Assembly (NCBI RefSeq): GCF_964340395.1
Contig: NC_135553.1
Span: 10,595,001-10,659,000 of the forward strand
Direction: 5' to 3'
DNA length: 64,000 nt
DNA from: Glandiceps talaboti
Taxonomy: Eukaryota > Hemichordata > Enteropneusta > Spengelidae
In this document: positions 14,430 through 64,000 of the stretch, piece after piece
Layout of the letters: every line of letters starts with the position of its first letter
Position numbering within the stretch: position 1 is the first letter of the stretch
Program-made: the position numbers and the translations under genes
Notes under the pieces: model-generated
Told to the model about the DNA's origin: nothing
What the model saw: only the letters and a program-made list of their open reading frames with translations
The model's database searches: none

Positions 14430-14888
14430 AGACATAAAATTTGCTTTTTGCACCAATTCGAATATTAACCGTTAGTTAGATGGCATATAGTAGTGTAGAC
14501 TGACAGATCAAGCGTGGTTTCCTTTCATAAAATTGGGACAATGACTCAAGCGATCGCGTCGAGTCTGTGCAAGGACAACTATGCTGTAACTCCACGATTG
14601 CTTTCTCAGCATGTCATGGAAATGAAATGTGCGCATGCGTGATCACCGTTGACCTTTCAATGTACACTCTACCTCACTCGTGGGAAATGAATGTGTCATA
14701 TACACTTGTCAAACTTGTGAGCATGTTAGAACAAGTTTTTTGATTTTGCTGAACTACGCAAATTCCAATGGCATAATGTACCCTATCTGACGCCGAGACC
14801 AGACGACAGCTGGCGGAGAGCAGGCTTCACAGCAATTATCGTTGCTGCTTAAAATATAACCATAATATGCAAATATAACTGGGCAATT
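14430..14888. promoter_or_regulatory. Probable bidirectional promoter region of MPG and the minus-strand gene
   Basis: About 0.5 kb between the divergent candidate exon and the MPG start codon is richer in CpG (GCGATCGCGTCGAG, GACGCCGAGACC) than its surroundings. It carries an NRF1-like site at 14630-14641. No TATA box is evident. This fits a housekeeping divergent promoter, by inference. Confidence 0.5.
14630..14641. promoter_or_regulatory. NRF1-like palindromic site
   Basis: TGCGCATGCGTG closely matches the NRF1 consensus (YGCGCAYGCGCR). It is 248 bases upstream of the MPG ATG, within the CpG-richer divergent interval. NRF1 sites are common in promoters of housekeeping and DNA-repair genes. 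Confidence 0.5.
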
Positions 14889-17800
14889 ATGTCTACGAAA
14901 GCTGTTACCAAGCAACGCACGGGTGTAGAGAGCGTCAAGATGAGGAAGACGAGGTCATCGGATAAAAAGAGGACTATAAAGAACAAAGGTGCTGGAGATG
15001 AAACTTGCTCTGTACCAAAGAGACAGAAAACATCGAAAACACAAGGAAATGATAAACAGACAAAGACAGTTCAAAGCAAATATTTTTCAGTTGGAGGAAA
15101 GACAGTACCCTCATCATCATCATCAACATCATCATCATCATCAGTTTCTACATCTACATCCCGGCTGGCGAAAGAATTCTTTCAGAAATCATGTATTGAT
15201 TTATCAAAAGCACTCCTAGGCCAGATTCTCGTTAGGAGCTCTGACACTGGTGAAAGACTGGCAGCTAAGATTGTTGAAGTTGAGGCATACCTGGGTGGGG
15301 AAGATAAGGGGGCACACTCCTATGGTGGTAAGAAGACAGAGAAAAATGCAGCCATGTTTATGGATCCAGGCACAGTGTATGTGTATTATATATATGGTCT
15401 GTATTCCTGTATCAACATATCTAGCCAAGGTGAGCACCCCAAGCTTGTCACCCTATGTTGTGTAAAGGTGACTAAGGTCTCTGGATGATCAATAAAAGAA
15501 TTCTTCCAAGTTCACTCAAATTTGTCCTTTTGCAAAAACCATGATATATTTTGAAGTTACATGCTACATTAGTCCAGAGACTTGCTAACTGGCCCAACTG
15601 TGTTTTTGGTCCAGATATGTGGGCAAAAACATTGTCAAGCCAATTATAGCCAAGTCTCTTACTAATGGTGGCTATCCATGTCTTGGTAAAGAGATATCTT
15701 GAGATTCAAAGCCATAAATAGCATCTAGAAAAAAAATGGTGTCTGAAGTTTCCAATGAGTTTATTATTGGGAATTCCATGACAGTTTTTCATCAGACTTT
15801 CACTTGCCAACATGCATCCTATCTAACAGGTATAATTATAAGGGTGACCCTATTTTTTTCATGTTTCTCCGACATTACCCGACTGACCCAATTTTCAGCT
15901 TCAACATCAAAATAAAAAACCCACATTTTTATAAAATATAAAAAATAGTAATTCGAGTAGAGAAGCTGAAAACATGCTAATTGTGTTACAGTGTAGAGAA
16001 GCTGGGAAAGGGATTGTTACCAGGAATCCAATAAAAAGATAGAGAAGGAGAAGGAGATGCAGAGAAACAGGAAGAAGATGATTTTTTTATTGTTTTACTT
16101 TAAAAAAAAAGAAGAAAAATCGGCCAACCAACCCATAGTTGCCATGAAAAAGTAATGAGAAACATAGGGTCACCTTAAAGCATCGTCCATGGAAAGACGT
16201 CTTGGAATGACATTATGGTTTCTGACTATAAACTCTCTACATGCTTGCAGGTTTCATTGGTCTATGATGTAATATTCATGAACAAAAGCCTAAATCCAAC
16301 TGTAGTCTCTAGACTTGGCTATCGATCTGGCTTGACATACTGGTTCACAGATCTGGTGAACACCATAGTCAAAGCCAGATAGTGAAATCTCTGGGCTAAA
16401 ATCGTTCCCATATAGGTATGCCCTAACACTGTAACAGCTGAGTTCTGTCCTGGTCTTTCACCAAGCTCCCATTCCACAATATCATGTCTAAAATATGGAT
16501 ACAATTATCAGTGCTAATAAATGGTATTTAACAGGTGGTGCCAGTAGAATCTAGAATTTCTGACAATGAGTCTTGAAGTAAATATGTGTATGGCCATGAC
16601 TTGTATTACTTAAAGTTCTGTCCTCAACCTTTCACAGCAGATCATTTGTATGGAGAGTGAATGACCTATATTATAAATAGGGTACATTGCTCTATATAGA
16701 CTCCATAAAATGCCATGTGATGTGATTTCAACACCTCTTTCATATGGTTAACATTTGTTCTTTTGTAAGTACTTTATCTTGAACTGGAATGTCTTTTGTT
16801 TGGTTAAGTTTATAGCCTCACTCTTGTAGTCAAACCTATCATTTTGTTGATAAAATTAGACTCATTGTACCAACTACTCTACCTTGCATCATAAGCAATA
16901 TATGTATGCTTATGGCTTGTCAGTATGATTTGAATAAGCCTACAACAGAACAGGAGGTACACATTGTAATAATAAGAGAATTAAACAGCATCTGATTCAA
17001 CAATATAGGTAGGCTGCAAACTTACATATCAGAGTTATCGATGACATTCTGATAGAGTAGTGTAGCTATAATTGTGGTGAACCATCAACTTCTAGTACTT
17101 TATACAGTTTAGCAATATTATTGTGTATTGGCCATATTGTTGAAGTCATTCTGGAAAAATTGATGTGTCATGATACAACACATGGTCAAACAACTGAATA
17201 ATGAACAGTTCAGTTTGGAATCATGGGGGTGGGGGTGGGGATGGGGGGTTAGGGGTGATGTAGCACATTCTGTAAATGTGTTGATTTTTGATTGGGTATG
17301 AAATTCATCACATCTTTTGGAACTTGCCAAGGCTGACATGATAAGGTAGCACCCTTCCCCTCACCACAAAGGTTAGCGGCATCTTGTGTCAGATTTGGAA
17401 TTCATTTTGTTGTAGCATGTTCATACTGTGCCCTCTAATGATAGCAAAGTTTTGTAGTTGTGAGGCAAACTGGGACAAACTTGGATTTCTTGTGAGTCAC
17501 TTCATAGTAAGAGATAGGGGAACACCATAGTTTGGTGCATCACTAGAAATTGTGTGAATCAGTGGCACGTCAAATTGACTTAGAGGGCACACTGGTTCAT
17601 AGGATATATAAATACACTGAAATAAAGAAAATTGGAACACTAATTCTTGCTACCTTTTGTGACCTCATAAATCATGATTGCTGTATTACCAAACTAACCA
17701 TATTTCTAATCACAGGTGAAGGAGCAGCAGTGTTGATCCGTGCACTAGAACCAGTCGATGGCATTGACAAGATGAGAGAAATACGAAGCAGGAAGAAGAA

Positions 17801-18095
17801 GGCAGGTTCAAAACCACTCAAAGATCATGAACTTTGCAATGGACCATCCAAATTATGTCAGGCTATGATCATTGATAAACCAACCTACAACAAGAAAGAT
17901 ATCACAACATGTGATACATTATGGTTGGAGGAAGGAGAAGCTGTCGATGAGGATACAATAGTTAAATGTCCTAGAATTGGTATTGATTACGCTAAGGAGT
18001 GGGCATCTAAACCTTTGAGGTTCTACACCCTTGGTTGTCAATCTGTTAGTGTGAGAAATAAAGAAGCAGAGAAAAGTCTACAAGGAGATGAATAA
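14889..18095 (+). CDS. MPG: DNA-3-methyladenine glycosylase (alkyladenine DNA glycosylase), two coding exons
   Basis: Base-excision repair enzyme that removes alkylated purines and hypoxanthine/ethenoadenine from DNA in the nucleus. CDS exons are 14889-15429 and 17716-18095; the intron is phase 1 with CCAAG|GTGAGC and CACAG|GTGAAG. The product is 306 residues (human about 298). Residues 1-90 are a basic, Ser-rich tail with a poly-Ser run near 75-90. The glycosylase domain covers about 92-300. By alignment to human AAG, the catalytic Glu125 is E132 in VEAYLG, Tyr127 is Y134, His136 is H143, Tyr159 and the intercalating Tyr162 are Y166 and Y169, Asn169 is N176 and Arg182 is R189. LCNGPSKLCQA and the C-terminal KPLRFY are also conserved. 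The first ATG of the frame was taken as start. NPRL3 lies further along, on the opposite strand, as in vertebrates. It looks intact. Confidence 0.97.
15430..17715 (+). other. MPG: MPG intron
   Basis: A 2.3-kb intron bounded by GTGAGC and CACAG. It contains a TIR element at 15840-16177 and copies of the short TCTCTAGACT/TCTCTGGGCT repeat family. No other exon is needed to complete the protein. Confidence 0.9.
15840..16177. mobile_element. MITE-like element with terminal inverted repeats
   Basis: The left end AAGGGTGACCCTAT (then a T run and CATGTTTCTC) matches the reverse complement of the right end GAGAAACATAGGGTCACCTT. The element is about 340 bp, AT-rich inside and has no coding frame. A non-autonomous DNA transposon is the simplest reading; no clear target duplication was seen. 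Confidence 0.65.
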
Positions 18096-28898: not shown

Positions 28899-29447
28899 AT
28901 GGCAAAAGCTAAGGCCGCCGCTAAACCAGCCAAGAAGCCAGCCAAGAAGGCAGCGAAGAAGCCAGCAAAGAAACCAGCAGCAAAGAAACCCAAAGCCAAG
29001 AAACAAGTTAAGAGGCTGAAGACATCAGCAAAGAAAGGAGGAAAGGCCAAGGTAAAAAGAGAACTACGATCGATTTTCTCCCACAAAGCAACGTTTCCGC
29101 CCAAGTTTACACTGGTCATACGCCCGAGCAAGATCTAGTCGTAAAACATGGATGTTAGTGAGGGAACTATAGTTTTTAAAAAAGATAGCAACACTTCTTG
29201 ATATTTGTCACGTTTTTGACCTTCAGATACTGCAATGCAAGGTTTACCCTGAACAGAAAGCAGTCGATGTGTCTGCACTTTTTTGGCCGAATGAAGGTCA
29301 ACTTTGTTTTCAATTTGTCAGTTAACGTTCCAGCAGGAAGGAGGTGGACACTGCCAGTGACCTGTGTTCATGCACTTGTCCGACCTTGCATCAAAATGTT
29401 TTACAAGTACTAACTACATCTTTCCTTTTCGTTTGCAGAAGAAGTAA
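28899..29447 (+). CDS. 53-residue Lys/Ala/Pro-rich basic protein (histone H1-tail-like / sperm basic protein-like)
   Basis: Likely a DNA-compacting nuclear protein; this is inferred from composition. Coding exons are 28899-29051 and 29439-29447; the intron (GCCAAG|GTAAAA to TTTGCAG) is phase 0. The start ATG is 19 bases after an acceptor-like AACAG. The product begins MAKAKAAAKPAKKPAKK, has repeated PAKKPAKK blocks, then QVKRLKTSAKKGGK and ends KAKKK. About half the residues are lysine and there is no globular domain, cysteine or acidic residue. It resembles the C-terminal tail of H1 and small lysine-rich sperm proteins such as sea cucumber phi-0. If the second intron were retained, 28 unrelated residues (VKRELRS...) would follow. 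The gene is spliced and no histone stem-loop was seen, so it is not a canonical replication histone. Confidence 0.75.
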
Positions 29448-32339: not shown

Positions 32340-33680
32340 CTGCTGTTTAAAGGCCAATGTTTCAATCCCAGGTTCTTGCACAATAGTGTTATCTTATCAG
32401 TGGAGCCATGAGGATTTGGGTGGGTTCATTCTTTTGTTTGGACCAAATGTTTCTATAACCTGTAAGATCATGAAGATACGACATTCATGCCACATCATCA
32501 GCTACCACCTACCAGGTTTAGAAGCCTGATAGGTAGGGCTGGATGAATAACACAACATATTTGATAAATTATAGTCTAATGTTTCCAGCTGTGGCAGACA
32601 ACTGGTTTTCTCACCTAGATTTTAATCGTAATCCAGACTGTGCCTTTACAGAAATAATGAAATCCATCGCAATGTGCAGAGTTGGTTAATTGAGAGGTTT
32701 AGGCCCAGAGGCTTGACAACACTGTTTAGGCCAGTCTATTAAATGGGAGTACATGATAATGAACATGACAAGTCTAAGCTAGGATCTAGAAGAGGGCTAT
32801 TGTGGTTGATATAAAGTGTTTTTTAATGGCCAATAATGACTGTTTGACCATATCTATAGGCCTAACACACAGTTATATAAATAACATTACGATGAACCGT
32901 AGACCCTACATGTCTATTCAAATTTTGCAGTCTTCTTAGGCTAAATTAAATATACTCCAACAAACAGGTAAACAAAAACGACATGTTTATTTACAAACAC
33001 CATCATAGAATACACACACAATTTGTTTGGATCGCTAGCTGACACTGTATAGTACCCAATATTTTACACATAGAATACCACATCAATATCCATTTCTATG
33101 CTATGATATATAAAATACATCCTTCATATAGAATCTTTGCATAATTTTATACTTCTATAAAGATGTGAAAGTTTTTAAAGGCCCATAATTTAATCCCAGG
33201 TTCTCACATTACTGTTATCTTATCAGTGGAGCCATGAGGATTACATAGGATTATTCTTTTGTTCAGGACCAACTTTCCTATAACTCTGCCAGACTTGTTT
33301 TTCTCATCCAAAGTTTAAAGGCCATCCAATCCCAGGTTCAAGCATACACACACTATCTTTTCAGAGGAGCCATATATATAACAACTACCGGGATTCATAA
33401 TGTTCTGGCTCATATTTTCCTATAGCTCTGCCAGACTATGAGTTTTCTCCTAAGGATTCAATTCCAGGTTCTAGCATACAAACTATCTTATTGGTGAAGC
33501 CATATACACGTATGTTCTGGGCCATCTTTTCCTATAGCTCTGCCAGACTGGGTTTTTCTCATCCAAAGTTTAAAGGCCAAGGATTCAATCCCAGGTTCTC
33601 ACATACATACCATCTTACATCAGAGGAGTTGTAAGGAATCACTAGGGTCACTTTTTTTTGTTCTGCATCATCTTTTTCTA
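32340..33680. repeat. Cluster of about five degenerate copies of a dispersed repeat
   Basis: Blocks with CAATCCCAGGTTC, then a variable CACANTACTATCTTATCAG and GGAGCCATGAGGATT recur at about 32.34, 33.18, 33.32, 33.45 and 33.57 kb, the last four spaced 115-140 bases apart. CTATAGCTCTGCCAGACT also recurs between them. The repeated sequence was probably duplicated locally. A reverse-oriented copy is at 8.6 kb. The CAATCCCAGG core is loosely like a pol III B box, so a tRNA-derived SINE is possible but unproven. Confidence 0.7.
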
Positions 33681-33729
33681 TAACTGTGCCAGACAATTGT
33701 TTTGTTACCCAAATTTAACAAAATTTTAA

Positions 33730-34008
33730 TTAAAATTTTTGTTGTTGTTGGTACAGGTACTGCATTGCTTTGGCTTTGCTGTGTGGTGGATTAGTAGATT
33801 TCCGTTCTGTTTTCACGTTCTTGCCCTTGTGATTATCTTGTTCAGTGCTTGCAACATCTTGGTCTGTCAACTCAACATACTCGGAACAGTCTGGGCTAGT
33901 AGACTCGTGTTGTGGTGATTTCAACATTTTCGACAAACAAAAACGTCCGCTAAGTCCTGTATGACCTTTCAGAGGATTTCCGCAGGAGCAACAGAGTCGG
34001 AGTGACAT
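33730..34008 (-). CDS. Small protein with CCHC zinc-knuckle-like N-terminus, 92 residues
   Basis: A single-exon frame from ATG at 34008 to TAA at 33730. The N-terminus LCCSCGNPLKGHTGLSGRFC has the spacing C-x2-C-x6-H-x7-C (C6, C9, H16, C24), which could bind one zinc. The KGHxGxxG core resembles short zinc-knuckle motifs that I associate with mobile-element-derived proteins in invertebrates; that is recollection, not a search. The remainder is hydrophilic, with an acidic stretch (EYVELTDQDVASTEQD), then a Lys/Ser-rich part, ending YLYQQQQKF. It is head-to-head with the H3-tail gene, starts 385 bp apart, and could share its promoter. Function unknown. It could be the single surviving exon of a longer gene. 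Confidence 0.45.
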   Translation of the reverse strand: MSLRLCCSCGNPLKGHTGLSGRFCLSKMLKSPQHESTSPDCSEYVELTDQDVASTEQDNHKGKNVKTERKSTNPPHSKAKAMQYLYQQQQKF

Positions 34009-34392
34009 GAAATTGTTACTTTTAGGCCGTCTGAGTTACCAAGCTGTTGAAACTGCAGTACCAACGATACGAATGACTGCACATGTGTGGATTTATTACA
34101 GCAGCCACATGAATGCTGCGCATGCATGAACCCCTTACAATTAGCATAAAAACAAAATTACGTCACGCTAGGTTTACTGGAGCTGGCATGAAACAACAAT
34201 ACAGAGTGTAATTAAACTAAATGACACATTTAACACCAATTTAACGGCAGATCCAAACTTGACTTTTAAATACACAATATATGCGTTATAAAAAATGTAG
34301 AATTAATTATCCAGGATTTTATTTTATTATTTTTCAGAGTTAAAAACTGAATTCATTTGATGTCCATTTATATCTGTGAAGTTTAATTAGGA
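34009..34392. promoter_or_regulatory. Divergent promoter region between the CCHC-like gene and the H3-tail gene
   Basis: A 384-bp interval with a CRE-like TTACGTCA at 34158-34165 and GCTGCGCATGCATG (partial NRF1-like) at about 34116. An acceptor-like TTATTTTTCAG at 34327-34337 suggests the H3-tail gene may have an upstream untranslated exon. CREM-bound CRE sites are frequent in testis genes, which would suit a sperm chromatin role; this is inference. Confidence 0.4.
34158..34165. promoter_or_regulatory. CRE-like site TTACGTCA
   Basis: Seven of eight bases of the CRE palindrome, 228 bases upstream of the H3-tail ATG and 150 bases from the divergent start codon. Confidence 0.35.
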
Positions 34393-34665
34393 ATGGCAAG
34401 AACACGGCAGACAGCTCGCCGCTCCACAGGAGGAAAGGCACCAAGAAGACAGCTCGCTACACGTGCAGCTAGACGCAGTGCGAGCGCAAGTGGGGCTGTG
34501 GTTGTGGATACGTCACCTATGAGGAAAGAACTGAGAAGCACGAGACACCTTATAAACAGAGAGAGACTGATATCTATGCAGAGTAGTCAACAACACATAC
34601 AAGGGTTCTCACAGTCCTATGAAGAGATTGAACCACCAAAGATGTTGAAGTTGAGGCGGAGATAA
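34393..34665 (+). CDS. Histone H3 tail-like protein without a complete histone fold, 90 residues
   Basis: Starts at ATG 34393, stop TAA 34663-34665. After the Met, residues 1-32 align without gaps to the H3 tail: 25 of 32 identical, the changes being K4R, K9R, K18R, K23R, K27R, P30S and T32S. K14 is kept, as are R2, T3, R8, S10, T11, R17, R26 and S28. After residue 33 the similarity ends, except that [11 protein letters not shown] may be a relic of the H3 alphaN-alpha1 segment (KSTELLIRK). The rest ([22 protein letters not shown], ending KLRRR) has no alpha2/alpha3 helices, so it should not form a normal H3-H4 pair. The frame is intact and basic. It could be a sperm nuclear protein with lysine-to-arginine drift, a mimic that occupies H3-tail readers, or a decayed H3 gene. 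No histone stem-loop follows; an AATAAA is at 35213. I know of no named family with this layout. Confidence 0.75.
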
Positions 34666-35212
34666 AGACTAGATGAAACCGGGTTATCTTACAAACGCTG
34701 CTGGAAATATTCCTTTTGTAAAAATGAACTGAATTTATTTGTAACAATAAGAACTGTACCTGGTCAAAATTCACAAACACTTTCAGAACACTGGATGTTA
34801 ATACATGTAAATATGCTGCCAGGACTATTCCTGTTGTAGAAGAGAACTTGAATGAAAACTATATTTGATCAGGAATCACATACTTTCAAATTAAGAGTCA
34901 CATAATTCCCCCAGTACATGTATCTTAAAACTGTCCCAATCACCAAATTGTTTTTAAAAGAGATATATATATATACTTATTTCATAGTTGTTTTTAAATA
35001 TTTTACCTCAGCAGAACTTTATGAAACTATGTATACTACGACAACATTATATTTGACAAGAAGAATATTGAAAAGGACCCACTCAGATACACAAGGTACA
35101 TCCCATCAGTAAGTTATCAGTCCCACCCTTTGTCTAATGTGATCAACCATTCAGCAATGCTGCATTTTTATAGACTTTAGACTTTGTGTCAACCCCATGA
35201 TGTGAATTTGAG

Positions 35213-35218
35213 AATAAA
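35213..35218 (+). terminator. Possible polyadenylation signal of the H3-tail gene
   Basis: AATAAA about 550 bases past the stop, just before the TATG microsatellite. It implies a polyadenylated message rather than a stem-loop histone message. Confidence 0.4.
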
Positions 35219-35250
35219 TTAAAACATTCTATTGTAAGCATTTATCACCA

Positions 35251-35406
35251 TGTATGTATGTATGTATGTATGTATGTATGTATGTATGTATGTATGTATG
35301 TATGTATGTACGTACGTACGTACGTACGTGCGTGCGTGCGTGCGTGCGTGTATGTATGTATGTATGTATGTGTATGTATGTATGTATGTATGTATGTGTA
35401 TGTATG

Positions 35407-35437
<31 letters not shown>

Positions 35438-35575
35438 GTATGTATGTATGTATGTATGTGTATGTATGTATGTATGTATGTATGTGTATGTATGTATGTA
35501 TGTATGTATGTATGTATGTATATGTATGTATGTATGTATGTGTGTGTGTATGTATGTGTGTGTCTGTCTGTCTCT
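35251..35575. repeat. Compound tetranucleotide microsatellite (TATG/TACG/TGCG/TGTG)
   Basis: About 325 bp of TATG units broken by a (GTAC)n/(GTGC)n segment near 35308-35350 and by periodic TGTG insertions. All three frames on both strands are open with periodic peptides, none of them genes. Imperfections suggest an old tract with internal duplication. Confidence 0.97.
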
Positions 35576-36769
35576 CTCTATGTGTGAGTGTAGACAAATG
35601 CAGACTAACAGGTGACAATACACATTTTGTGGCTGTGCCTTGGAGTGTAGCGACAGTCACTCTTCAAGATTCACTGATTATACATGCACTGTAAATTTCC
35701 TAAACTTGTACGTATTCCTATTTAGTTATCATATCTATACCACATACAAGCAAGGTTTAACCACAGCCACTTGTGAGCTTGATAGTGAGCACTTCCTGTG
35801 AATATTTGTAAAATGTCTAATGATGTGAATGTTTCATACTACCATTGTATCGAATCTTAGCCAAAGAGTGACTGTAGGTTGACCTGTTATTTTTACACTA
35901 AAGTTTTCTATGTTCACGAAAACTCACATTCAAATTACTGGTTCAGCAGTGCTTGAAATACACACACGAGTCTTGTATGACAAGGCACCTTCCTCGATCG
36001 AAGAAAAATATTGGGGAAATAATATCTAAGGGTACCAGTGATTACCGTACTTGCTCACTGCATGTGTAATACCAACAACATTAGTGCAGACAGATATGCA
36101 AATGAGCTCAAAACATTCTATGATTTACATAAAGTTGTGATATCTGAAATCACATGCATGAACACACTTTACAAGACAGTACAATGGTATAATCCCAGTT
36201 AAGTCAACAAATGATTTGAGATATAACTCAATCTTGCTATCTTACTTCACATTAATTAATTTAAAAAAAAATGTACAAAAATAATGATGACATACTAATT
36301 AATGTTAGTATTTCATTTTATTCAGTGTAGTTAATACACTGGCAATAAGTTTACAAATATATACAGCACCATTATTTGGCATAATATACACTGTGAACAA
36401 CATCTACAAAGGACTGACTGCCATTTAAATGACGACATACTCTGCAATGTACTCTTACAGGATAGAATGATGTGTATGTAGAGTCACTCTTTGCAAGGTG
36501 TTTCTCTCATACGCAGGCAACTTACAAGGCATTCTCACCAACTGTGCCTATCGAACACACTAGGATCTAACTATATTGCTGAAAATTCAAGCTAAATACT
36601 TTTGATGAAGTATACTAAGAATTCACATTCCACTGTTCTCAGTTTATAATTATAAAATATCAATTCCGTTGCTCTTTCTGATCAATATATAATAAAAGTG
36701 CCAATCTCTGGTATTACATTTTTAATTTTGTCATGATCAAACTACTTTTTACTATGAAGGTATTTGTCA

Positions 36770-37453: not shown

Positions 37454-40400
37454 TCAAAGGAATTCTTTGTATGTAATGGTGGCGGCATCTTGATGTAAAC
37501 ACGTGATTAGAACATCTCTGAATTTATCTAGTAATGTCAGGAGTTGTGATCTTCTTAAGTTCTCATAATACATGATTTCCTCCAAGTGGTGAGTTCCTCG
37601 GAAGTAGGGGCACAACCTGGATGACAGAAAGAAAAGAATGAACTCAGGACATATACAGATCATTTTGAGAGTAACTTTCTGTGTGTATCAACATATCTAC
37701 ATATACAGCACATTTTACCATAAATTACTAACATTCTTGGGTGGGGGTGGGGGAAAAAGGAACATAATCCACCATCGGTGATGACACATTGACAAATTCT
37801 ATCTATCTCTGTACTTCTTAATACTTTTATCAAAATGTAAATTTTGTTTCTATGCATAATCAATTTTCTGGCTAATCTACTTCATATGATTTAAAGAACA
37901 GGAAAATAAAATTAGATAAACATCTTTTCATTTTACTCTGTCTTCCTCTAAAGCAGGTGAGTATATATGATGTACAACTGTTGACATCGAAGCGTTGATG
38001 AATTGAACTTGTTACAAACAGGGAAAGTAAACCAATGAATGGGCACTTGGCACAGCATGCTGGAAGTAGAGACAAACAGTACATTTCATGGTTTGATAAG
38101 AACTGCTGTATGGCCTCTTTACATAATAATTCACATTCGCAAACAAATTTGAAGTTCCACTTGGCTTTACACATCATGAAGAGGCTATAAAACTATTCTT
38201 ATCAAACCATGAACTGTAATACAAGTCTCTGCTGTTCCAACATGCTGTGCCAAGTGAATTAGTTTACTTTCCCTGTTTGTAACAAGTTCCATTCGTCAAT
38301 GCTTCGTTGTCGGCAGTTGTGTGTGTTTCTTTGATTCTGGGGATACAGCATTGATAGTAATAATAATATTGTTACCTAGCAAACAGTCTGAGATCTTCAT
38401 CATTACTAGCAGCTGGTATACTTAGAACACTAAGTCGTTCAGCATTAGTTAACTCTGTCAACAAGTCTTCTCGTACTCTCTGTCTCAAATGCATATGTTC
38501 TTGTACTAGTTGTCCATTACTGCTAAGTTCTGGTGATTTGGCAGACAGACTGTCCAAACTAGGACTATGTGACATGTCTTCTGTGTCATCTACAGACACA
38601 AGAGTAAAGAAAACACAAACCTTGCTTAGAATACTTGTCATTGCATGATGGGATTGAATAACGTGTCAATGAGAAGGAGAACATCTTGATTCATCATCCT
38701 ACTTAGACCGTAAGATATATTGTGTTGTTCAGCCCTGATGCGTGCTGGCGGATAGTGTGGTACGGATGTCTACAGACTACATCCTACATATAAAAGCCAT
38801 ACAGGGCATTTGGCTCTGTCAGGACAAAACTACTTGTCACCAGGTTATACTTCCATGCTGTCACCAACTCAGTACATGCCAGGTCAATATCAAAGACAAA
38901 CATGACAGTCACACTTCATCAGCTTTATCCAACATTAAGCATAACTAGATGGTCACAAATACTATGAAGCAAGGTTCAATCCAGCGACAAAATGATGACG
39001 CTTAGTACAAGCATGTCTTGAGGAATGTAAATGGGTTTGTTGGTTAGCAAGACATGGCTTCTATGGATGTCAGTGAAAATCTTTATTTCTACAGTATGGC
39101 TTTGCATGGAAAGCCTTCTTCAGGGTATTGAAAAAGAACAGAAAATGGAGGACATATATTAAGTAAAAAGTCATGCATGGCACCAAGGCACTCACTGCCA
39201 TGATAGTGTAGTGTATGCACTAGCATTGCATTCAAAGAGTTAATAGTTACAGTGTGTTGAGATAGTGAAAAGTCTTGCATTGCCTCAAAGCCCTCAGTGT
39301 CAGGGTAGTGTATACACGAGCATTGCATTCTAAGAGTTGATAGTGACTTGGGATAGTGAAAAGTCTTGCATGGCCCCAAAGCCCTCAGTGCCAGGGTAGT
39401 GTATACACTAGCATGACATTCAAAGAGTTGATAGTGAGTTGGGATAGTGAAAAGTCTTGCATGGCCCCAAAGCCCTCAGTGCCAGGGTAGTGTATACACT
39501 AGCATGACATTCAAAGAGTTGATAGTGACTTGGGATAGTGAAAAGTCTTGCATGGCCCCAAAGCCCTCAGTGCCAGGGTAGTGTATACACTAGCATGACA
39601 TTCAAAGAGTTGATAGTGACTTGGGATAGTGAAAAGTCTTGCATGGCCCCAAAGCCCTCAGTGCCAGGGTAGTGTATACACTAGCATGACATTCAAAGAG
39701 TTGATAGTGACTTGGGATAGTGAAAAGTCTTGCATGGCCCCAAAGCCCTCAGTGCCAGGGTAGTGTATACACTAGCATGACATTCTAAGATTCCATTCAG
39801 ATAGTGATAATATATAATCAGTTTACATACACAATGATTCAGGTAATCCAGTACTGCTGCCTGTACTTCTTTCTGATATCTTGTGTTGTCTTGTTACAGC
39901 AAAGTCTGGGAAGTCACTATCACCTGGTGAGTATCTATCCAGTGGTGTTAAAAATACATACGTATGCAGCTACAAGAAAAGCAAAATTAAGAGCGATGAG
40001 TCAGGGATGATATTTTTTCAAAGGGAACATATTAGATCTGGTTGCAATACAAACTTGTCAGTAGTAGCTATTTTAAATGTTTTATTGTTTGGTAGCCTGC
40101 TTTTGCAGCTGTGAGCCCTAAGAGGCTATCAAACTGAAATTAAGTGCAAATAAATCTAACATATATAGGCTGACAGAGTTTGTCTTATACACCGTATCAC
40201 AATGTATGACATTCTTCCTGTAGAATCTGATCATGACTTAACTATGAGTTTTTTGTTTTTATTTCATTTCTATCATATATCACAACAAATGAATCTGTCA
40301 GTTAGCTGTGTGATATTGAATTCTGCTTGGTTTCACTATGTTTTAATTGATACTATATTTGGGGGTTGTGAACTTGCCCTGATACTATATTTGGGGGTTG

Positions 40401-43400: not shown

Positions 43401-46400
43401 AGAGCTGCAGATAGTAACTCCACGGCATTAAGCTGTCCATTACAAGTCAAAGCTATGGCATCACTCTCAAAAGGTCAAACCACAGCTTCATGCACAGAAA
43501 CAGAACTGTACCAATAAATAGGAATGTAATATTTGTCAAATTTAATAAGTTTAGAACAAGGTTACTTACACATGTAAATCACAGTTAGGTGATAGTACAT
43601 AGACATTGGTTTCACACAGTGGGTATATTATAGTAGCCTGACCCCAGTAGACTAAATGACCGGCAATCTGAAACACCTACGAGAAATAAGAGACAAAGAG
43701 ATAGTAAATAATAACACTAAATACAAATCTGTTATAGAGCGAACCCCATGATGTCTGAGTGACAGTGTGTTGCACACTCAGGGTATTTGTACCCACACTA
43801 CCCCATGTGTCATGGGGTTCTAGTTTTATCACATGTTTAACCAAAAGGGCACATTTTTGTAATAAAGTATAGCTGTGTGGTCACATGATCTATGTACAAG
43901 GAACACTAATTTGCATACAATAATGTTTTCAGTATTAAACAGCAGTGCAAATACATACCAACTGTATACACCTGCTGGATGACTTTTACATAGCTTTAAC
44001 AAAAGCTAAATCACAGTCCTGTGATAACTGTTACATCCTTGGGACAAAGCTACATCACATTCCCGTGATAACTTTTACATACCTGGGACAAATCTAACTG
44101 CAGTCCCGTGATAACTTTTACATACCTGGGATAAAGCTAAATCACAGTCCTGTGATAACTGTTCCATACTTGAGACAAAGCTAACTGCAGTCCCGTGATA
44201 ACTTTTACATACCTGGGACAAAGCTAAATCACAGTCCTGTGACAACTGCTGTAAACTTTTCAAGGGTGTTGTTGTCTTGACAACTCTGGTAAGTGAAGGT
44301 GATGAGTCAGCTGGCAGTACATCAAGTAGACGGTTTTCATCTCCTAATAACAATACAGCATGGTAAGGTCTGATAGCTCTTAGACTCTTCTCAATGACAT
44401 CAGGCTAGAAAATAAAATTTGGATGTGATTACACAAACGGATCACACTCATTGCGGTAAATGTAACATATGTTTATGATGCTGCTTGAAAGGAACAGTAT
44501 TCTTTGTAATTATTGTTTTCATAGCATACTTCACTGACATATTATATAATTGAGAAGAATTGCTCTATTTAGTTATTTTGGTTCAAGCACTCAACACACA
44601 TGAAATGTCTGGTAATGAATGAATGAGAGAAGATATGATGTAACTCTTAACTGCCTGTACTTTGGTATAGGCCACATAAAGTGTTTTTGCTAAGGTGTGG
44701 GCACCCCAGTAACATTAACGAGGAAATCTGGTAAACTGTGGTATTGTTTCCCATTATTTGCCATATTTTGTTTGGGGACCCCAGTAAAGTAAAGTGACTT
44801 GGAAAGTGTCCGAAACTCAGGTGAATTTTGCCTACTAACAGCTCCTAAAAAATCTCTGGCTGCAATGTGTCATCCACACGGATTAAAAACAACTGATGTA
44901 GTAAAGAGCTGTAAGACTTACCTCTATATGCATTTGTTCCACATTGTGAACTTTGTGTGGTAAACAGAAACTGACTTGTACCCAGTTATTTATACGGATA
45001 CTTACTACTCCAGAATTGCACAAACTGAAAAGGCAATAAATAATTTTAGAACACATCTCATGCATTTGTTACGTTGTGATTTGTCAATACCTTGTCATGA
45101 GTACGGTGGTATTACTCATTTCAATGCTGTTGCATGCAAAGTGACATTCCCATGGGCCAAGGCCCTCGGGAAATAGATTTGTTTTGAGGTGATCAACAGA
45201 CCCTCGATGGGAACAGATGTATGCTATCACAATCATGGCCAGTCAACATGTGTACAATCTATGTAGTATTGAAAACAGTGAAATAAAATTGGCATACTAA
45301 CATTTTTGAACGTACATGTAGGTACAACTCAAATATCAATTTTTTTAAAATTCACAAATCAAACATCCTACTGATATGAGTGATGTATTTCTGCTTTTCA
45401 ATTCATAGATTCATATTTCTTAAATGATCACTGTTTTATTTGCAAATATGATATAATTTTAAGTAGGGGAAATACTATATTTGTTGTAACTTGTAATCTA
45501 CAGACTAAGCAATAACATGGGAGGCTGTAAATCAGCTCATTAACCTGTAACCATGACAACATTAAGCCTGAATTGAATTAGCCCATGTGAATTGTAGCCA
45601 AGCTTATAATGATTATAACTTTACACGCGTATTATCGTGTATTAGTAAGTTGTCAAATATGTCTGTAAGCACTGTCCCTCTATCACTATCATGGTGATAA
45701 AGGGAGTGTGCTGTAAGTAAGCAAAATGCAAACAGCTATAACCCAGCAAAGTAGCCTGTGAGTAAGCACATAATTAGCTTGCAAATTAGCAAAGTAGCCT
45801 GTGAATAAGCACATAATAAACAAAGTAGCCTGAGTAAGCACATAATTAGCTTGCAAAGTAGCAAAGTAGCTTGTAAGTACACAATTACCCTGCAAATTAG
45901 CAAAGTAGTCAGTGAGTAAGCACATAAATACCTTGCAAATTAGCAATGCAGCCAGTGAATAAGCAATAAATTAGCTTGCAAATTAGCAACATAGCACTTA
46001 CTTTTCATATACATCCTTCAAATCCCTGCATAGTTTACTTTTTGGTAGCATCATTCTGAATGGAGACTCAGCCATGTCTTCTGGTAATGCTGCAATTTCA
46101 TCATGTACTGATAACATGATTTTGGCTTGATTACTCAGATAGCCACATCTTCTCTCTTCATGTCTCAAGGCCAAGGACAATCGCTTTGACAGGTCATGAT
46201 AGCAATGGACAACTGACTGGACGACATCTCCCTTTGGCCAATATAAAAAACAAAAGAAAATGATGTTATCTGATAGGGGGCGCTATTCCACTAAATGTCA
46301 TAATTTCCGGTTGTGAGTAGATGTACCTGCGTCATGATCATTTATCAAAACTTTTGATATTAAAGTGTTCACATGGCACCCTTTATTGTGTATTTTATTT

Positions 46401-56000: not shown

Positions 56001-59000
56001 TGCCCATGCTATGAGAATTACCATAAACTTCTTCGAGACCGAAATGCAAAAAGACGTCTTGGAAATTGGTGTTGGCACGACAACTAATTTCGACAATGCT
56101 CTGTATACCTTCATGGGAGATACAATGCCAGAGCCAAACGTGTTCTTAATCCAGGAAGATCAGATCTGGGTGACATTTTTCACCGATCATAATATTCGAT
56201 TCCGTGGATTTAACATAACATTTGAGATTGGTAAGTTTCAATTTAATTGTTGAAGTTTGAAATGAAGTGTTCCTCGATGTCAAACCACATAGAGTATTTA
56301 TAACCGAATTGTTCTCTTTAATGCAGATCTAAGAGACAAAATATTGTAACATTCACAATTATCTGGGCATTGTTTCTCACAAACGGAAAATCTGTTTTCA
56401 CAAGCATGTGATTCATTCATTCATTCATTAAATCTATGGTATTGAGGCTCACTATTTCAAATTGATTGAGAAATAAAATATACAAATTTCTAATTTACAA
56501 TCCAACAACTTGTATGATTTAGAACGTTTCTAGAAATTCAAGGTTTATGCTGCAAAATTGACAACATATAATTGAAATTAAAGCCATTACTACTAAAGAT
56601 AATAATAACACAGGTTAAGTACAATAACTCTTGACACCTCGACCCACAGAATTGCCCATCAGTTACTAGAGAAGACTTGTTCTTGATCGTGATATTCTTT
56701 TTTTCCTTTATCACTAGATGCTGACGAGTGTGCTGGTAACCCGTGCCAGCCCGGATACCAATGTATCGATGAAGCATTTTCATACACATGTATCGGTGAG
56801 TTTCAGACTTCTATTGGTATATTGAAGTTTGTTTTTCGGGCTTATGATATTCTCCGAAACGAAACGAAACGAAACGAAACGAAACGGAACGAAAGAAAAA
56901 TGTTCATCTCAATGCCATAAGCCTGTTTTTTTTTTCCAAAAGTTCCAAAGTGTTGATAGGGTTTTTATACCTGAAGTCAGGGGGACACAAGTGAACTTTT
57001 CAGAAACTAATATTTGTATATGATCAGAAAGTTCTGGAAGATGTTGACCCACATATGCCAATGTTTATCTAAACCAATAAACCATTACAATTCACACTTA
57101 TTTACAATAACAAATTAAGAAAATCTTGGTCTTTGGTACAACTGTTATTAATATAATCAATTCGTCAGTATTTTTTATGATGGCACACTGCATTTGAATA
57201 TGTATCATCAAAGTTGGTAAAGTCTACTGTTACAGTACTTGTACTATGAAACAGAGTTACTAGATGTAAATACACATTAATCTTATCATCAGTAGTAACA
57301 AAACATATATGCTCTCCCTTCATTAACAGATATAAATGAATGTAACAGTAGCCCTTGTGAAAATGGTGGAACGTGTAGTAATCTGATCAATGCCTTCAGC
57401 TGTGACTGTTTACCAGGATGGACAGGAACTCGATGTGATATCAGTGAGTGGTGCAGGCGTGTTCTCAGTTGAACGTCAGATTTATGAGAGAAAAGTTTTA
57501 TAGACAAAATATCTTGATTATTTGTTAAGAATGTAAACAATTCACGTTGTGTAATATTTGTGAATAATATAAAGAGGTGGGTGATTTTGTATTTTCATGT
57601 TTCTTCAAATAATCACTGTCAACGCATTTGAAATGTGTGAAAAGTTCACATGACCATGATAAAAGAAATAATCTTTTAGTGGTTGGAAATCGTGTTGCTC
57701 CCTCATGTTCGGAATTTGAGGGAGTAAAGTTAGAAAATATGTCTTTAATCTAATTTTCCCAAATCATCATCCACACACGTATCTATGGTAACTAAACAGT
57801 CATGCTGTTGTTCTCGTTTTTCAGATATCAACGAATGTGCTAGTAATCCATGTCAGAATGGTGGTACATGTCTGGATGCTGTCAACTACTACACATGTAG
57901 CTGTGCTGCAGGATATACTGGAACTCATTGTGAAATCAGTAAGTAGCATAGAATCACTATAGTTATATATTATCCTCCAACATTTGTCTTTGTTCAGTCA
58001 AGGAAAATACGAGTGACATAATGAGTCACAGATATGTAATGCTACAACCCTTGTGTAATGATTTGATCAACTTGAAGTCTCTTCCCAGGATGTGATTGAC
58101 CAATTTAACCCACCATAAGTCTCTACCGTATATTTAGTTTTTAATCACGTTTTACCAAATTTGTTACTCGAATTGTACTACTTTTCCCAATTCTAAACAA
58201 AATGAGGCTGTCTAAACCAACACATATATATTCTGAACTATATATTATGTCGTTTCAGATATCAACGAATGTCTGAGTGTACCTTGTTTGAATGGAGGCA
58301 CATGTAATGATCTGATCAACATGTATTCCTGTACCTGTGTACCTGGCTGGACTGGAGCTAACTGTGAAACCAACTTTAATGAGTGTCTGAGCAGTCCCTG
58401 TTTGAATGAAGGTACATGTACCGACGGTCTCAACCAATACATCTGTTCCTGCATTGCTGGTTACACAGGTTTAAGATGCGAACTTGACATCGATGAGTGT
58501 GCAAGTGCTCCATGTTTGAATGGTGGTGCCTGTAATGATTTAATCAATGCTTACAGCTGCACATGTGCACCAGGCTGGACAGGTACCTACTGTCAAATTA
58601 ATATAAATGAATGTGCTAGTAGTCCATGCCAGAATAGCGGCACCTGTACAGATCTGATCAACTCCTACAGCTGTGCATGTGTTTCTGGCTATACTGGTAC
58701 CCACTGCGAAGTTGACATCAATGAATGTTCCAGTAGTCCATGCGTACACGGTACCTGCAACGATCTAATCAGTTTGTACACCTGTAGCTGTTTTTCAGGA
58801 TGGACAGGTACCAACTGCGATGTTGATATCAACGAATGCTTCATTAACCCATGTCAGAATGGTGGCAGTTGTAATGACCTGTTGAACCAGTACACATGTG
58901 ATTGTGTACCTGGATACACAGGTATAAACTGTGAAATCGATGTTAATGAATGCTCCAGCAACCCCTGCTTGAATGGTGGGGCCTGTATTGATCAAATCAA

Positions 59001-62000
59001 CATGTTTACTTGTAACTGTGTGTCTGGTTGGACTGGCATTTTATGTGGGATCAACATCAATGAATGTGCCAGCAACCCTTGTCTGAATGGTGGCACTTGC
59101 AATGATCGCATCAATGGGTACACATGTTCCTGCCTTGCTGGATGGAGTGGCGATTTCTGTCAGATCAATATTAATGAATGTGCCAGCAACCCTTGTCTAA
59201 ATGGTGCAACTTGTACTGATGGTATAAATGGATACACCTGTATCTGTGTCTCTGGCTGGGGTGGTGACTTCTGTCAGATCAACATCAACGAATGTGCCAG
59301 CAACCCTTGTCAGAATGGTGGTTTCTGTGAAGATGGCATCAATGGATACACATGTTTCTGTAGTGTTGCTTGGGGTGGTGACTTCTGTGAGATCAATATC
59401 AATGAATGTGCAAGCAACCCATGTCTCAATGGTGGCACCTGTGCAGATGGCATTAATGGTTACACATGTTCCTGCCTTGCTGGATGGCGTGGTGACTTTT
59501 GTCAAATCAACTTCAATGAATGTGCAAGTAACCCTTGTCTAAATGGTGCCACTTGTACTGATGGTATAAATGGATACACCTGTGCCTGTGTCTCTGGCTG
59601 GGGTGGTGACTTCTGTCAGATCAACATCAACGAATGTGCCAGCAACCCTTGTCAGAATGGTGGATTCTGTGAAGATGGCATCAATGGATACACATGTTTC
59701 TGTAGTGTTGGTTGGAGTGGTGACTTCTGTGAGATCAATATCAATGAATGTGCAAGCAACCCATGTCTCAATGGTGGCACCTGTGCAGATGGCATTAATG
59801 GTTACACATGTTCCTGCCTTGCTGGTTGGCGTGGTGACTTTTGTCAAATCAACTTCAATGAATGTGCTAGCAACCCTTGTCTAAATGGTGCCACTTGTAC
59901 TGATGGTATAAATGGATACACCTGTATCTGTGTCTCTGGCTGGGGTGGTGACTTCTGTCAGATCAACATTGATGAATGTGCCAGCAACCCTTGTCAGAAT
60001 GGTGGTTTCTGTGAAGATAGCATCAATGGATATACATGCTTCTGTAGTGTTGGTTGGAGTGGTGACTTCTGTGAGATCAATATTAACGAATGTGCTAGCA
60101 ACCCATGTCTTAACGGTGGATCCTGCAATGACGGTGTTAATGGTTACACCTGTGATTGTACTTTAGGATGGAGTGGTGACTTCTGCCAAATCAACATCAA
60201 CGAATGTGCCAGCAACCCTTGTCTCAATGGTGCCACTTGCAATGATGGTATAAATGGATACACCTGTGCCTGTGTTGCTGGATGGAGTGGTGACTTCTGT
60301 CAGGTCAACATAAACGAATGTGCCAGCAACCCTTGTCTGAATGGCGCCACTTGTAATGATGGTATTAATGGTTACATCTGTGCTTGTACTTTAGGATGGA
60401 GTGGTGACTTCTGCCAAATCAACATTGATGAATGTTCCAGCAACCCTTGTCAGAATGGTGGTTTCTGTGAAGATGGTATCAATGGATATACGTGTTTCTG
60501 TAGTATTGGTTGGAGTGGAGACTTCTGTGAGATCAATGTCAACGAATGTTCCAGCAACCCATGTTTCAATGGTGGCACCTGTGCAGATGGCATCAATGGT
60601 TACACATGTTCCTGCCTTGCTGGTTGGCGTGGTGACTTTTGTCAAATCAACTTCAATGAATGTGCTAGCAACCCTTGTCTAAATGGTGCCACTTGTACTG
60701 ATGGTATAAATGGATACACCTGTGCCTGTGTCTCTGGCTGGGGTGGTGACTTCTGTCAGATCAACATTGATGAATGTTCCAGCAACCCTTGTCAGAATGG
60801 TGGCTTCTGTGAAGATGGCATCAATGGATACACATGCTTCTGTAGTATTGGTTGGAGTGGTGACTTCTGTGAGATCAATATCAATGAATGTGCAAGCAAC
60901 CCATGTCTCAATGGTGGCACCTGTGCAGATGGCATTAATGGTTACACATGTTCCTGCCTTGCTGGTTGGCGTGGTGACTTTTGTCAAATCAATTTCAATG
61001 AATGTGCAAGCAACCCTTGTCTAAATGGTGCCACTTGTACTGATGGTATAAATGGATACACCTGTGTTTGTGTTGTTGGTTGGAGTGGTGATGTCTGTCA
61101 GATCAACATTGATGAATGTTCCAGCAACCCTTGTCAGAATGGTGGCTTCTGTGAAGATGGCATCAATGGATACACATGCTTCTGTAGTATTGGTTGGAGT
61201 GGTGACTTCTGTGAGATCAATGTCAACGAATGTTCCAGCAGCCCTTGTCTGAATGGCGCCACTTGTAATGATGGTATTAATGGTTACATCTGTGCTTGTA
61301 ATTTAGGATGGAGTGGCGACTTCTGCCAAATTAATATCAACGAATGTGCCAGCAACCCTTGTCAGAATGGTGGAGTCTGTGAAGATGGCATCAATGGATA
61401 CACCTGTTTCTGTAATGTTGGTTGGAGTGGTGACTTTTGTCAAATCAATATCAATGAGTGTGCCAGCAACCCATGTCTAAATAGTGGCACCTGTGCAGAT
61501 GGCATCAATGGGTACACATGTTCCTGCCTTGCTGGTTGGAGTGGTGACTTTTGTCAAATCAATTTCAATGAATGTGCAAGCAACCCTTGTCTAAATAGTG
61601 CCACTTGTACTGATGGTATAAATGGATACACCTGTATCTGTGTCTCTGGCTGGGGTGGTGACTTCTGTCAGATCAACATTGATGAATGTGCCAGCAACCC
61701 TTGTCAGAATGGTGGTTTCTGTGAAGATGGCATCAATGGATACACATGCTTCTGTAGTATTGGTTGGAGTGGTGACTTCTGTGAGATGAATGTCAACGAA
61801 TGTGCCAGTAATCCTTGTCTAAATGGTGCTACCTGCAATGATGGTATCAATGGCTACACCTGTCTCTGTGTTGCTGGATGGAGTGGCGACTTCTGTCAGA
61901 CCAACATCAATGAATGTGCAAGTAATCCATGTCTGAATGGTGCTGCATGTGGTGACTTCATTAATAGTTATACGTGTACCTGTCTACTTGGTTGGAGTGG

Positions 62001-64000
62001 CAACAGATGTGAGATTGATGTCAACGAGTGTTCAAGTAGCCCTTGTCTGAATGGAGCAACCTGCAATGACATTATCAATGGGTTCACATGTACCTGTATG
62101 TCTGGTTGGGATGGTATCCTTTGTGGGGTCAATATCAATGAGTGTATCAGTAACCCATGTCTGAATGGTGGAACATGTAATGACATCATAAATGGCTACA
62201 CCTGCGCCTGTCTTGCTGGATGGAATGGGGACTTATGTGAAATCAATATCAATGAGTGTGCAAGCAACCCATGCCTCAATGCCGGATCTTGCACTGACTC
62301 GATAAATGGGTATTCATGTGCTTGTGTTTATGGTTGGGCTGGTGTTAATTGTCAGATGAACATAAACGAGTGTGCCAGCAACCCTTGTCTAAATGGTGGA
62401 ACGTGTGCAGATGCTGTTGGCAAGTACACTTGTATCTGTGGACCTGGCTGGAATGGTAATCTCTGTGAAGTAAACATCGATGAGTGTGCCAGCAACCCAT
62501 GTTTGAATGGTGCTATTTGCCAAGATTCCATAAATGGTTACTCATGTGAATGTGTTTCTGGCTGGACTGGCACTCTCTGTGAGATTGACATTAACGAGTG
62601 TGCCAGTAGTCCATGTTCAAATGGTGGTACCTGTAGAGATGTGTTGAATGGCTACATATGTACATGCCAGCCAGGCTGGGTTGGTGCAAATTGTGACGTC
62701 GACTTTAATGAATGCATCAGCACTCCCTGTTCAAATGGTGGCATTTGTGCAGACCTCCTCAACTCCTACAGATGTGACTGTGCTCCAGGATGGATTGGTG
62801 TCACTTGTGATACCAATGTTGACGAATGTACCAGTGGTCCATGTTTGAATGGTGGTCAGTGCAATGATCTTGTCAACAAATACACCTGTACTTGTGCACC
62901 AGGATGGCAAGGTATCCATTGTGAGCTAGACATTGATGAATGTGCAGTTAGTCCCTGTCGTAATGGTGGTACTTGTGTCAACCTGCTCAATGCCTACAGA
63001 TGTGACTGTCCTATTGGATGGATTGGTACTAACTGTGATATTGGTAAGTATGAAAGAAACATTTCTATCATATGAAAAAGTTATCCAACCAATTCAAGAA
63101 GGAAATAAAATGTTGTTCCTCCCTCTTAAGTGTTTACATTCCATTGATTTAATGACAGAAATATAACATGCAGATATCATATATCCAATTTGGCAATATT
63201 TTGAAATAAGTTCAGAAATGACGAATCCTAGTCATGTTTCATATTTCTTTCATACAATTTCAGACTTCAATTTCTGTGATGCTGCACCTTGTTTGAATGG
63301 AGCCACCTGTGTCGATGGATTAACTGGATACACTTGCAGCTGTGTGTTTGGATACAGAGGAGTGAACTGCGAAACTAGTAAGTAACGAAAAAAGTTTGTA
63401 TCCACATTGCAATCCTTTCGATTCTTATCTTCTTAACACAAATCTGTCGTCAATATGGCTGAGATGCTGTTTTCTTCACGAACAACAAATTACTCCTGCA
63501 TTACTCGCACCGCACATACAATATTGACTGACATGTTGCTTTCATTCAAATGATTGAATATTGTGTTTTTTGTAGACATAGACGAATGTGTCAGTAACCC
63601 ATGTTTGAATGGTGGAGCTTGTACAGATGGAGTGAATCAATACACTTGTCAGTGCGATCAAGGGTGGACAGGTCTTAGATGTGAAATAGGTGAGTTGTGA
63701 GTTGGAACTTTAGCGTTGACATTTACTCTTTGGGTACTTTACAGAAGTTCTTTTTTTTTACTTTTAATGTCTTTTGCATATACATATACTACGAAACACA
63801 TTACATGTAATCTCTTTGGTTGCAGATGTCGATGAGTGTTCCAGTTCTCCTTGTTTGAATGGAGGAGTATGCCGAGACCAAGTCAATTCATACATATGCG
63901 ACTGTGTTCCTGGCTGGATTGGTAGCAACTGTGAAATCGATTTTGATGAGTGTGCCAGTAATCCTTGTCTAAATGGTGCGGTGTGCAGCAATCTGCTGAA
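53028..64000 (+). CDS. Fibropellin-like secreted protein: signal peptide, EGF, CUB, then about 47 EGF repeats (3' end outside window)
   Basis: Likely an extracellular-matrix or apical-layer protein. Coding exons: 53028-53094 signal peptide; 55049-55171 EGF; 55886-56230 CUB; 56718-56795 short four-Cys EGF-like; 57330-57443 and 57825-57938 one EGF each; 58259-63043 with 42 EGFs; 63264-63377 and 63576-63689 one EGF each; 63826 to the edge, one and a half EGFs. Every intron is phase 1, so each module can be gained or lost without breaking the frame. The repeats carry the calcium-binding NxNEC or DxDEC start. EGF-CUB-EGFn is the layout of sea urchin fibropellins, which end in an avidin-like domain; that end would lie beyond the window. 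Notch is unlikely, because of the CUB domain. No membrane segment appears. I see no breaks. Confidence 0.93.
53095..55048 (+). other. First intron of the CUB/EGF gene
   Basis: A 1.95-kb intron. An antisense open stretch at about 53829-54060 ([12 protein letters not shown] ... [17 protein letters not shown]) has protein-like composition but no good splice sites or known domain; it may be a gene relic or chance. Nothing else stands out. Confidence 0.6.
55886..56230 (+). CDS. CUB-domain exon
   Basis: 115 codons in one exon, phase 1 on both sides. NCGENYYD opens the domain, and [18 protein letters not shown] shows the usual SPxFP-xxY pattern before the second cysteine. Further matches are ITINFFETE and, at the end, [20 protein letters not shown]. 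Only two of the usual four CUB cysteines are obvious. The acidic pocket typical of calcium-binding CUBs (E, D and D) may be partly present: FFETE and FFTDHN. Confidence 0.9.
56857..56886. repeat. (GAAAC)n pentanucleotide tract
   Basis: Six GAAAC-type units in an intron of the CUB/EGF gene. Confidence 0.9.
58259..63043 (+). CDS. Giant exon encoding 42 tandem EGF repeats
   Basis: 4785 bases, phase 1 at both ends, exactly 1595 codons: 41 repeats of 38 residues and one of 37 (the VHGTC repeat at about 58740 lacks one residue). The typical repeat runs [16 protein letters not shown], xDGINGYTC, [11 protein letters not shown], with six cysteines. Repeats between about 59.0 and 61.9 kb are nearly identical in groups of three (types A, B and C), while those at both ends are diverged. 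All carry the calcium-binding consensus. Loss of the introns seen around single-EGF exons, followed by unequal exchange, explains the size. Frames on the other strand and +1 frame are shadows. Confidence 0.95.
59160..61900 (+). repeat. 342-bp higher-order repeat within the EGF exon
   Basis: Groups of three EGF units repeat as a block. B-type units ([17 protein letters not shown]) occur near 59320, 59662, 60004, 60460, 60802, 61144, 61372 and 61714. The spacings are 342, 342, 456, 342, 342, 228 and 342 bases. Near-identity at silent sites indicates recent unequal exchange or conversion. Confidence 0.9.

Follow-up and report, generated by a model that had tools for sequence, protein, structure and literature searches.

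A possible unmodifiable mimic of the histone H3 tail in a tail-only reading frame of the acorn worm Glandiceps talaboti

Mimics of the histone H3 tail are already known, and those with which we compared the reading frame described here copy shorter or looser stretches of the tail. The SNAG domain mimics the H3 tail in shape and not in sequence. By N-terminal mimicry of the H3 tail, the SNAG-domain factors Snail1 and GFI1 are reported to recruit LSD1 (PMC12612597), whereas the frame from Glandiceps talaboti copies the H3 sequence itself. The PHD finger of UHRF1 is described as recognising the motif ART in H3 and VRT in PAF15 and DPPA3, and mouse DPPA3 as inhibiting the binding of UHRF1 to chromatin, with human DPPA3 doing so much less (PMC11187062). 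PAF15 (PCLAF) is reported to be a small protein whose H3-like N-terminus is read by UHRF1, whose binding to PCNA needs two Phe residues, and whose dual mono-ubiquitylation involves two tail lysines 4-9 residues apart; Lys-to-Arg replacement at both PAF15 sites abolished co-precipitation of DNMT1 (PMC7060239). On H3, the same source places the paired ubiquitins that recruit DNMT1 on lysines 14, 18 and 23 (PMC7060239).

In a window of 64,000 nucleotides, the whole stretch of G. talaboti DNA that was analysed, we find an open reading frame (hereafter the ORF) that starts as an H3 tail and has the following parts:

34393-34665, + strand: H3-tail-like ORF of 90 codons, ATG to TAA, from the list of open reading frames
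34393..34497, + strand: Met and H3-like tail (H3 residues 1-34), from the H3.1 alignment and phmmer matches to H3 chains
34498..34665, + strand: C-terminal part, 55 codons plus TAA, with a predicted helix at ORF residues 41-75

An in-frame TAA lies three codons before the ATG. The reference for the tail was human H3.1; H3 positions are counted from the residue after Met, and ORF residues are numbered with Met included. Of H3 residues 1-32, 25 are identical in the ORF, the same count that a sequence-only reading of this DNA had given for the H3 tail. Within residues 1-29 the ORF departs from H3.1 by K4R, K9R, K18R, K23R and K27R alone, so five of the six lysines have turned into Arg and the unchanged positions are all intact (24/24). 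The alignment agrees with the swapped lysines named in that reading and with its statement that K14, T3, S10, T11 and S28 are kept; R2, R8, R17 and R26 are kept as well, and K36 and K37, both Val in the ORF, lengthen its list of lost lysines. K14 is the only lysine in residues 1-43. Beyond residue 29 the ORF shows P30S, T32S, G34A, K36V, K37V and P38D, and H3 similarity ceases near residue 35. The match is above chance by phmmer against PDB chains (E 9.9e-12 to H3), by tblastn (E 3.8e-14) and by a local H3 profile (E 1.8e-14).

The conserved tail (with A31, as in replication-type H3) is what the ORF has in common with histone H3, whereas the fold is missing and an unrelated C-terminus of 55 residues stands in its place. 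Pfam found no histone domain in the ORF, and an H3 profile run over the window in six frames (2,927 pieces) gave E < 1 only for the tail part of the ORF, the next best piece having an E of 1.7; the earlier description of the frame as tail-only, with the fold absent, is thus upheld. The possible STxxLI relic of alpha1 proposed in the same reading did not hold up, as residues 36-90 scored 25 against the H3 fold and shuffled sequences averaged 24.5 (p 0.43). Nor did these residues resemble the CENP-A fold above shuffles (p 0.33). A decayed full-length H3 with its fold in another frame was rejected, as tblastn and the H3 profile gave no such match in the window below E 1. CENP-A was also rejected, since its tblastn matches in the window look like chance (E 0.061, in a frame with stops, and E 0.27), and a profile that included CENP-A found no fold of the CENP-A type in the window. 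Rfam at the gathering score gave 0 matches across the window, and so no replication-histone 3' stem-loop; with E up to 5, the region 34000-36500 gave 18 matches, none to the histone stem-loop family and all within 35249-35624, on or beside an ATGT repeat.

The codons of the tail bear on how the Lys-to-Arg pattern arose. At K4, K9, K18, K23 and K27 the Arg codons are CGG, CGC, AGA, CGT and CGC (4/5 of the form CGN), which lie at least 2, 3, 1, 3 and 3 base changes, respectively, from a Lys codon. Assuming Lys ancestry and single-base steps, the five codons required at least 12 changes, five that replaced Lys and at least seven that kept Arg; multi-base mutation or gene conversion would lower the weight of this step count. 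Under neutrality (divergences of 0.05-0.5, kappa 2 or 4), the probability of at least four CGN codons in five, given Arg, ranges from 9e-9 to 9e-4. Neutral simulations that included CpG hypermutation, with 4,000 runs at each of 5 divergences, produced at least four Lys-to-Arg changes in 2/20,000 cases, and in 0/20,000 when no more than two other changes were also required. The observed/expected CpG ratio is 0.82 in the tail, 0.42 in the window and 0.40 in the C-terminus, and CGN accounts for 5/9 Arg codons in the tail and 1/8 in the C-terminus (Fisher p 0.13). The earlier argument that a uniform Lys-to-Arg pattern in an intact frame speaks against random decay is reinforced by these simulations and by the CGN probabilities. 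Because of the CGN codons, the neutral simulations and the CpG level of the tail, we conclude that Arg was, to judge from the sequence, favoured at the swapped lysine positions. The pattern is, by the same codon evidence, a real evolutionary signal, and random decay would explain the tail poorly. This selection may predate the tail-only form, having acted on an earlier full-length protein, and it may since have ceased.

What kind of locus carries such a tail? Our leading, though tentative, reading is that the ORF is a small orphan gene whose product would be an H3 tail free of the nucleosome, recognised but not modified like H3. Nearly as likely is that the ORF is the unused tail remnant of a once-selected H3 variant with these Lys-to-Arg changes, left by truncation, duplication or retrocopy and running by chance into non-coding sequence. 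The C-terminus has features that suit such a remnant. In a codon-usage model built from two pieces of MPG together with 300 EGF codons, it scores -0.17 bits per codon against a mean of -0.12 for intergenic open frames, 57% of which score as high; its codon usage is therefore no better than intergenic, and its CpG ratio is that of the window. Among intergenic windows of 55 codons, 954 of 22,270 (4.3%) are open anyway, as the frame of the ORF is to its end, and a chance of 4% is not negligible. No database protein has three 5-residue words in common with ORF residues 33-90, a PDB search with the C-terminus gave 0 matches up to E 5, and an NCBIfam search with the ORF gave 0 matches. AlphaFold2, run on the single sequence, places a helix at ORF residues 41-75 with a pLDDT of about 90 over residues 41-60 and a mean of 71.5; the one intergenic control ORF (n=1) also gave helices, at lower confidence (mean pLDDT 53.9), and the helix predicted in the ORF is not clearly amphipathic compared with shuffles (p 0.14).

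Database relatives bear on the same question. The protein searches covered proteins of about 50-157 aa, and the whole-ORF search scored 23 candidates, 18 of them with E <= 1. Of these 18 matches, 15 have two of the six lysines changed to Arg and three have three, compared with five in the ORF, and a Pfam histone domain is present in 15/18. In the three that lack such a domain (P0003, P0012 and P0016), the H3 tail gives way to unrelated sequence. Read-through of a first exon into its intron, or a chimeric origin, may explain these proteins, and read-through of this type is a warning for the ORF as well, in line with the remnant reading. A further parallel from the deuterostomes is the truncated H3 gene H3sh of Oikopleura dioica, which has undetectable expression and is called a likely pseudogene by the authors, and which we liken to the ORF by truncation alone (PMC3156773). 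Against an unused remnant, the tail frame is intact and its CpG-rich Arg codons have been kept, and none of the database proteins of 50-157 aa is a full-length H3 with five such changes in its tail, although a parent could have been lost or be unannotated. From Glandiceps itself the search gave no match in the 50-157 aa range, though the database includes Glandiceps MPG, so public annotation does not seem to call the ORF a short protein. The MPG proteins of Saccoglossus and Ptychodera are in this database too, so the search would probably have recovered a short ortholog with such a tail had one been annotated; an ortholog that is unannotated or longer than 157 aa would have escaped it. Our literature search, which left most subscription journals outside its reach, found no title on a comparable tail-only H3 gene.

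An unlikely alternative is that the ORF encodes a nuclear basic protein of sperm or eggs derived from the H3 tail, in which Lys-to-Arg changes would raise the affinity for DNA and the RS dipeptides at 9-10, 27-28 and 47-48 would be kinase sites as in protamines. Like sperm nuclear basic proteins, the ORF is small, basic and Arg-rich, with 17 Arg and 4 Lys among 90 residues (21/90 basic and 6/90 acidic), a pI of about 12 and three RS dipeptides. In addition, a Lys-rich ORF of 53 aa (24 Lys) lies 5.3 kb upstream in two exons (28899-29051 and 29439-29447, + strand; junction AAG/GTAAAA ... TTTGCAG/AAGAAGTAA); by its sequence it resembles the C-terminal tail of H1 or a small basic protein of sperm, and neither Pfam nor NCBIfam gives a significant match to its unspliced frame. 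Protamines are described as marked by high Arg content and Arg clusters (PMC12216123), whereas the ORF has no long Arg cluster, carries its six acidic residues in the C-terminus and keeps the non-basic residues of H3 exactly. The identity of all 24 unchanged tail residues to H3 is more than charge requires: a protein that binds DNA through basic charge alone would have no need to preserve T3, Q5, S10-G13 or Q19-T22 exactly, and we infer that the 24 residues fit sequence-specific recognition better than they fit a merely basic sperm protein. The same literature search, within the same limits, found no title on acorn worm sperm proteins.

The surroundings of the ORF are relevant to whether it is a complete gene. 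It sits between MPG (+) and NPRL3 (-) in G. talaboti, a hemichordate of the Spengelidae, and the following features were recognised at the locus:

14853-18095, + strand: MPG, by Pfam
34287..34293, + strand: TATA-like box in an AT-rich flank, weak
34335..34337, + strand: CAG in the 5' leader, a weak candidate for a 3' splice acceptor, with about 0.8 such sites per kb
35213..35218, + strand: AATAAA, a possible polyadenylation signal, weak
44075-46282, - strand: NPRL3, by Pfam

The GC content of the 200 bp before the ATG is 0.25, and the TATA-like box is hence a weak sign. Splice donors matching 6-7 of 9 bases occur inside the ORF (34490) and downstream. Because the only listed internal donor matches 6/9 bases, the ORF would most simply be the last or only coding exon. 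It is improbable, more so than a sperm protein, that the ORF instead opens the coding sequence of a longer spliced gene, the remaining exons having gone unrecognised. The database searches were blind to relatives longer than 157 aa and the donors inside and beyond the ORF would allow such a gene, but the match of the sole internal donor is no better than 6/9, no fold of the H3 or CENP-A type follows in the window, and what comes next within 30 kb is NPRL3 and a frame of EGF repeats.

Two window exons of MPG, joined by hand, are 100% identical to the G. talaboti protein over 306 aa. For NPRL3, the Pfam NPR3 match at 45998-46282 is above the cut-off and that at 44075-44404 is weaker and falls below it; on our reading the gene has exons nearer 38 kb, where the frame 38372-38665 gave no significant Pfam match. 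MPG and NPRL3 are thus close together in a hemichordate, and in vertebrates this pair adjoins the alpha-globin genes. The EGF-like repeats lie in an open frame of 1,612 codons (58237-63075, + strand) built of 114-bp units with higher periods of 228 and 342 bp. An ORF of 92 aa (33730-34008, - strand), with a Cys-containing start and no Pfam match, is arranged head-to-head with the H3-tail ORF, the two ATGs being about 385 bp apart. A long ATGT microsatellite (35250-35561, + strand) just past the AATAAA gives rise to microRNA matches below the Rfam threshold. Upstream of the ORF (33250-33740, + strand), a short dispersed repeat is present in several diverged copies; a repeat origin of the coding part was rejected, as repeat copies within the window touch only about 33650-33740 and not the ORF.

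If the ORF is a free mimic of the H3 tail, we infer its expression, the removal of its Met, its binding and every functional step from what is observed, namely the sequence, the missing fold and the past selection on the tail. Once Met had been removed, the mature N-terminus would begin ART. From this free H3-like start, factors that grip the H3 N-terminus (PHD fingers reading A1-R2-T3, tail-binding enzymes and importins) could therefore still bind the mimic. Lysine methylation, acetylation and ubiquitylation would be impossible at positions 4, 9, 18, 23 and 27, with K14 alone retained in the tail. The C-terminus, perhaps helical and ending in KLRRR, might anchor the mimic on DNA or on a partner, and the mimic would then compete for tail-binding factors or serve them as a decoy. 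That the recognised residues are kept and the modifiable lysines lost suggests that the mimic would bind H3-tail readers yet evade modification. As methyltransferase competitors, Lys-to-Arg peptides are usually weaker than Lys-to-Met peptides, which counts against this reading.

Membership of the PAF15 family was considered and rejected. The ORF has the MART start and H3-like N-terminus in common with PAF15, its tail resembling that of human PAF15 with a p of 0.039, and its Pfam PAF match (E 4.1) is below the cut-off. A PIP box of the form Qxx[ILMV]xx[FYW][FYW] is absent from the ORF, which has only QQHIQGF followed by Ser; there is no tail lysine pair for dual ubiquitylation, K14 standing alone; and the C-terminus is unlike that of PAF15 (p 0.99). 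With DPPA3 (STELLA) the likeness is in motif only, and we claim no sequence relation. Both have the xRT motif of UHRF1-PHD ligands, present in the ORF as ART after Met (Met removal being assumed), and then helical sequence, predicted in the case of the ORF. In contrast to DPPA3, the ORF would expose its ART at a free N-terminus, and H3 tail makes up most of its first third.

These parallels raise a more specific and quite speculative version of the mimic reading, to which we give little credence. The ORF might be a 'ubiquitin-proof' H3 tail whose ART fills the PHD finger of UHRF1 and whose Arg residues at K18 and K23 block the paired ubiquitins that recruit DNMT1, providing acorn worms with a brake on the maintenance of DNA methylation, perhaps in the egg or the early embryo, that arose independently of mammalian DPPA3. 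The window is depleted in CpG, which is consistent with methylation of the genome.

Even if the ORF is a fragment, it still records the past presence in acorn worms of an H3 tail in which Lys-to-Arg changes were selected. If it is a mimic, it would be a natural counterpart of the Lys-to-Arg experiment done at the bench, with nearly the whole tail placed in a separate gene, and it would mean that an animal uses an unmodifiable H3 tail off the nucleosome. Such a protein would help to separate the readers that need the H3 sequence from those that need its marks.
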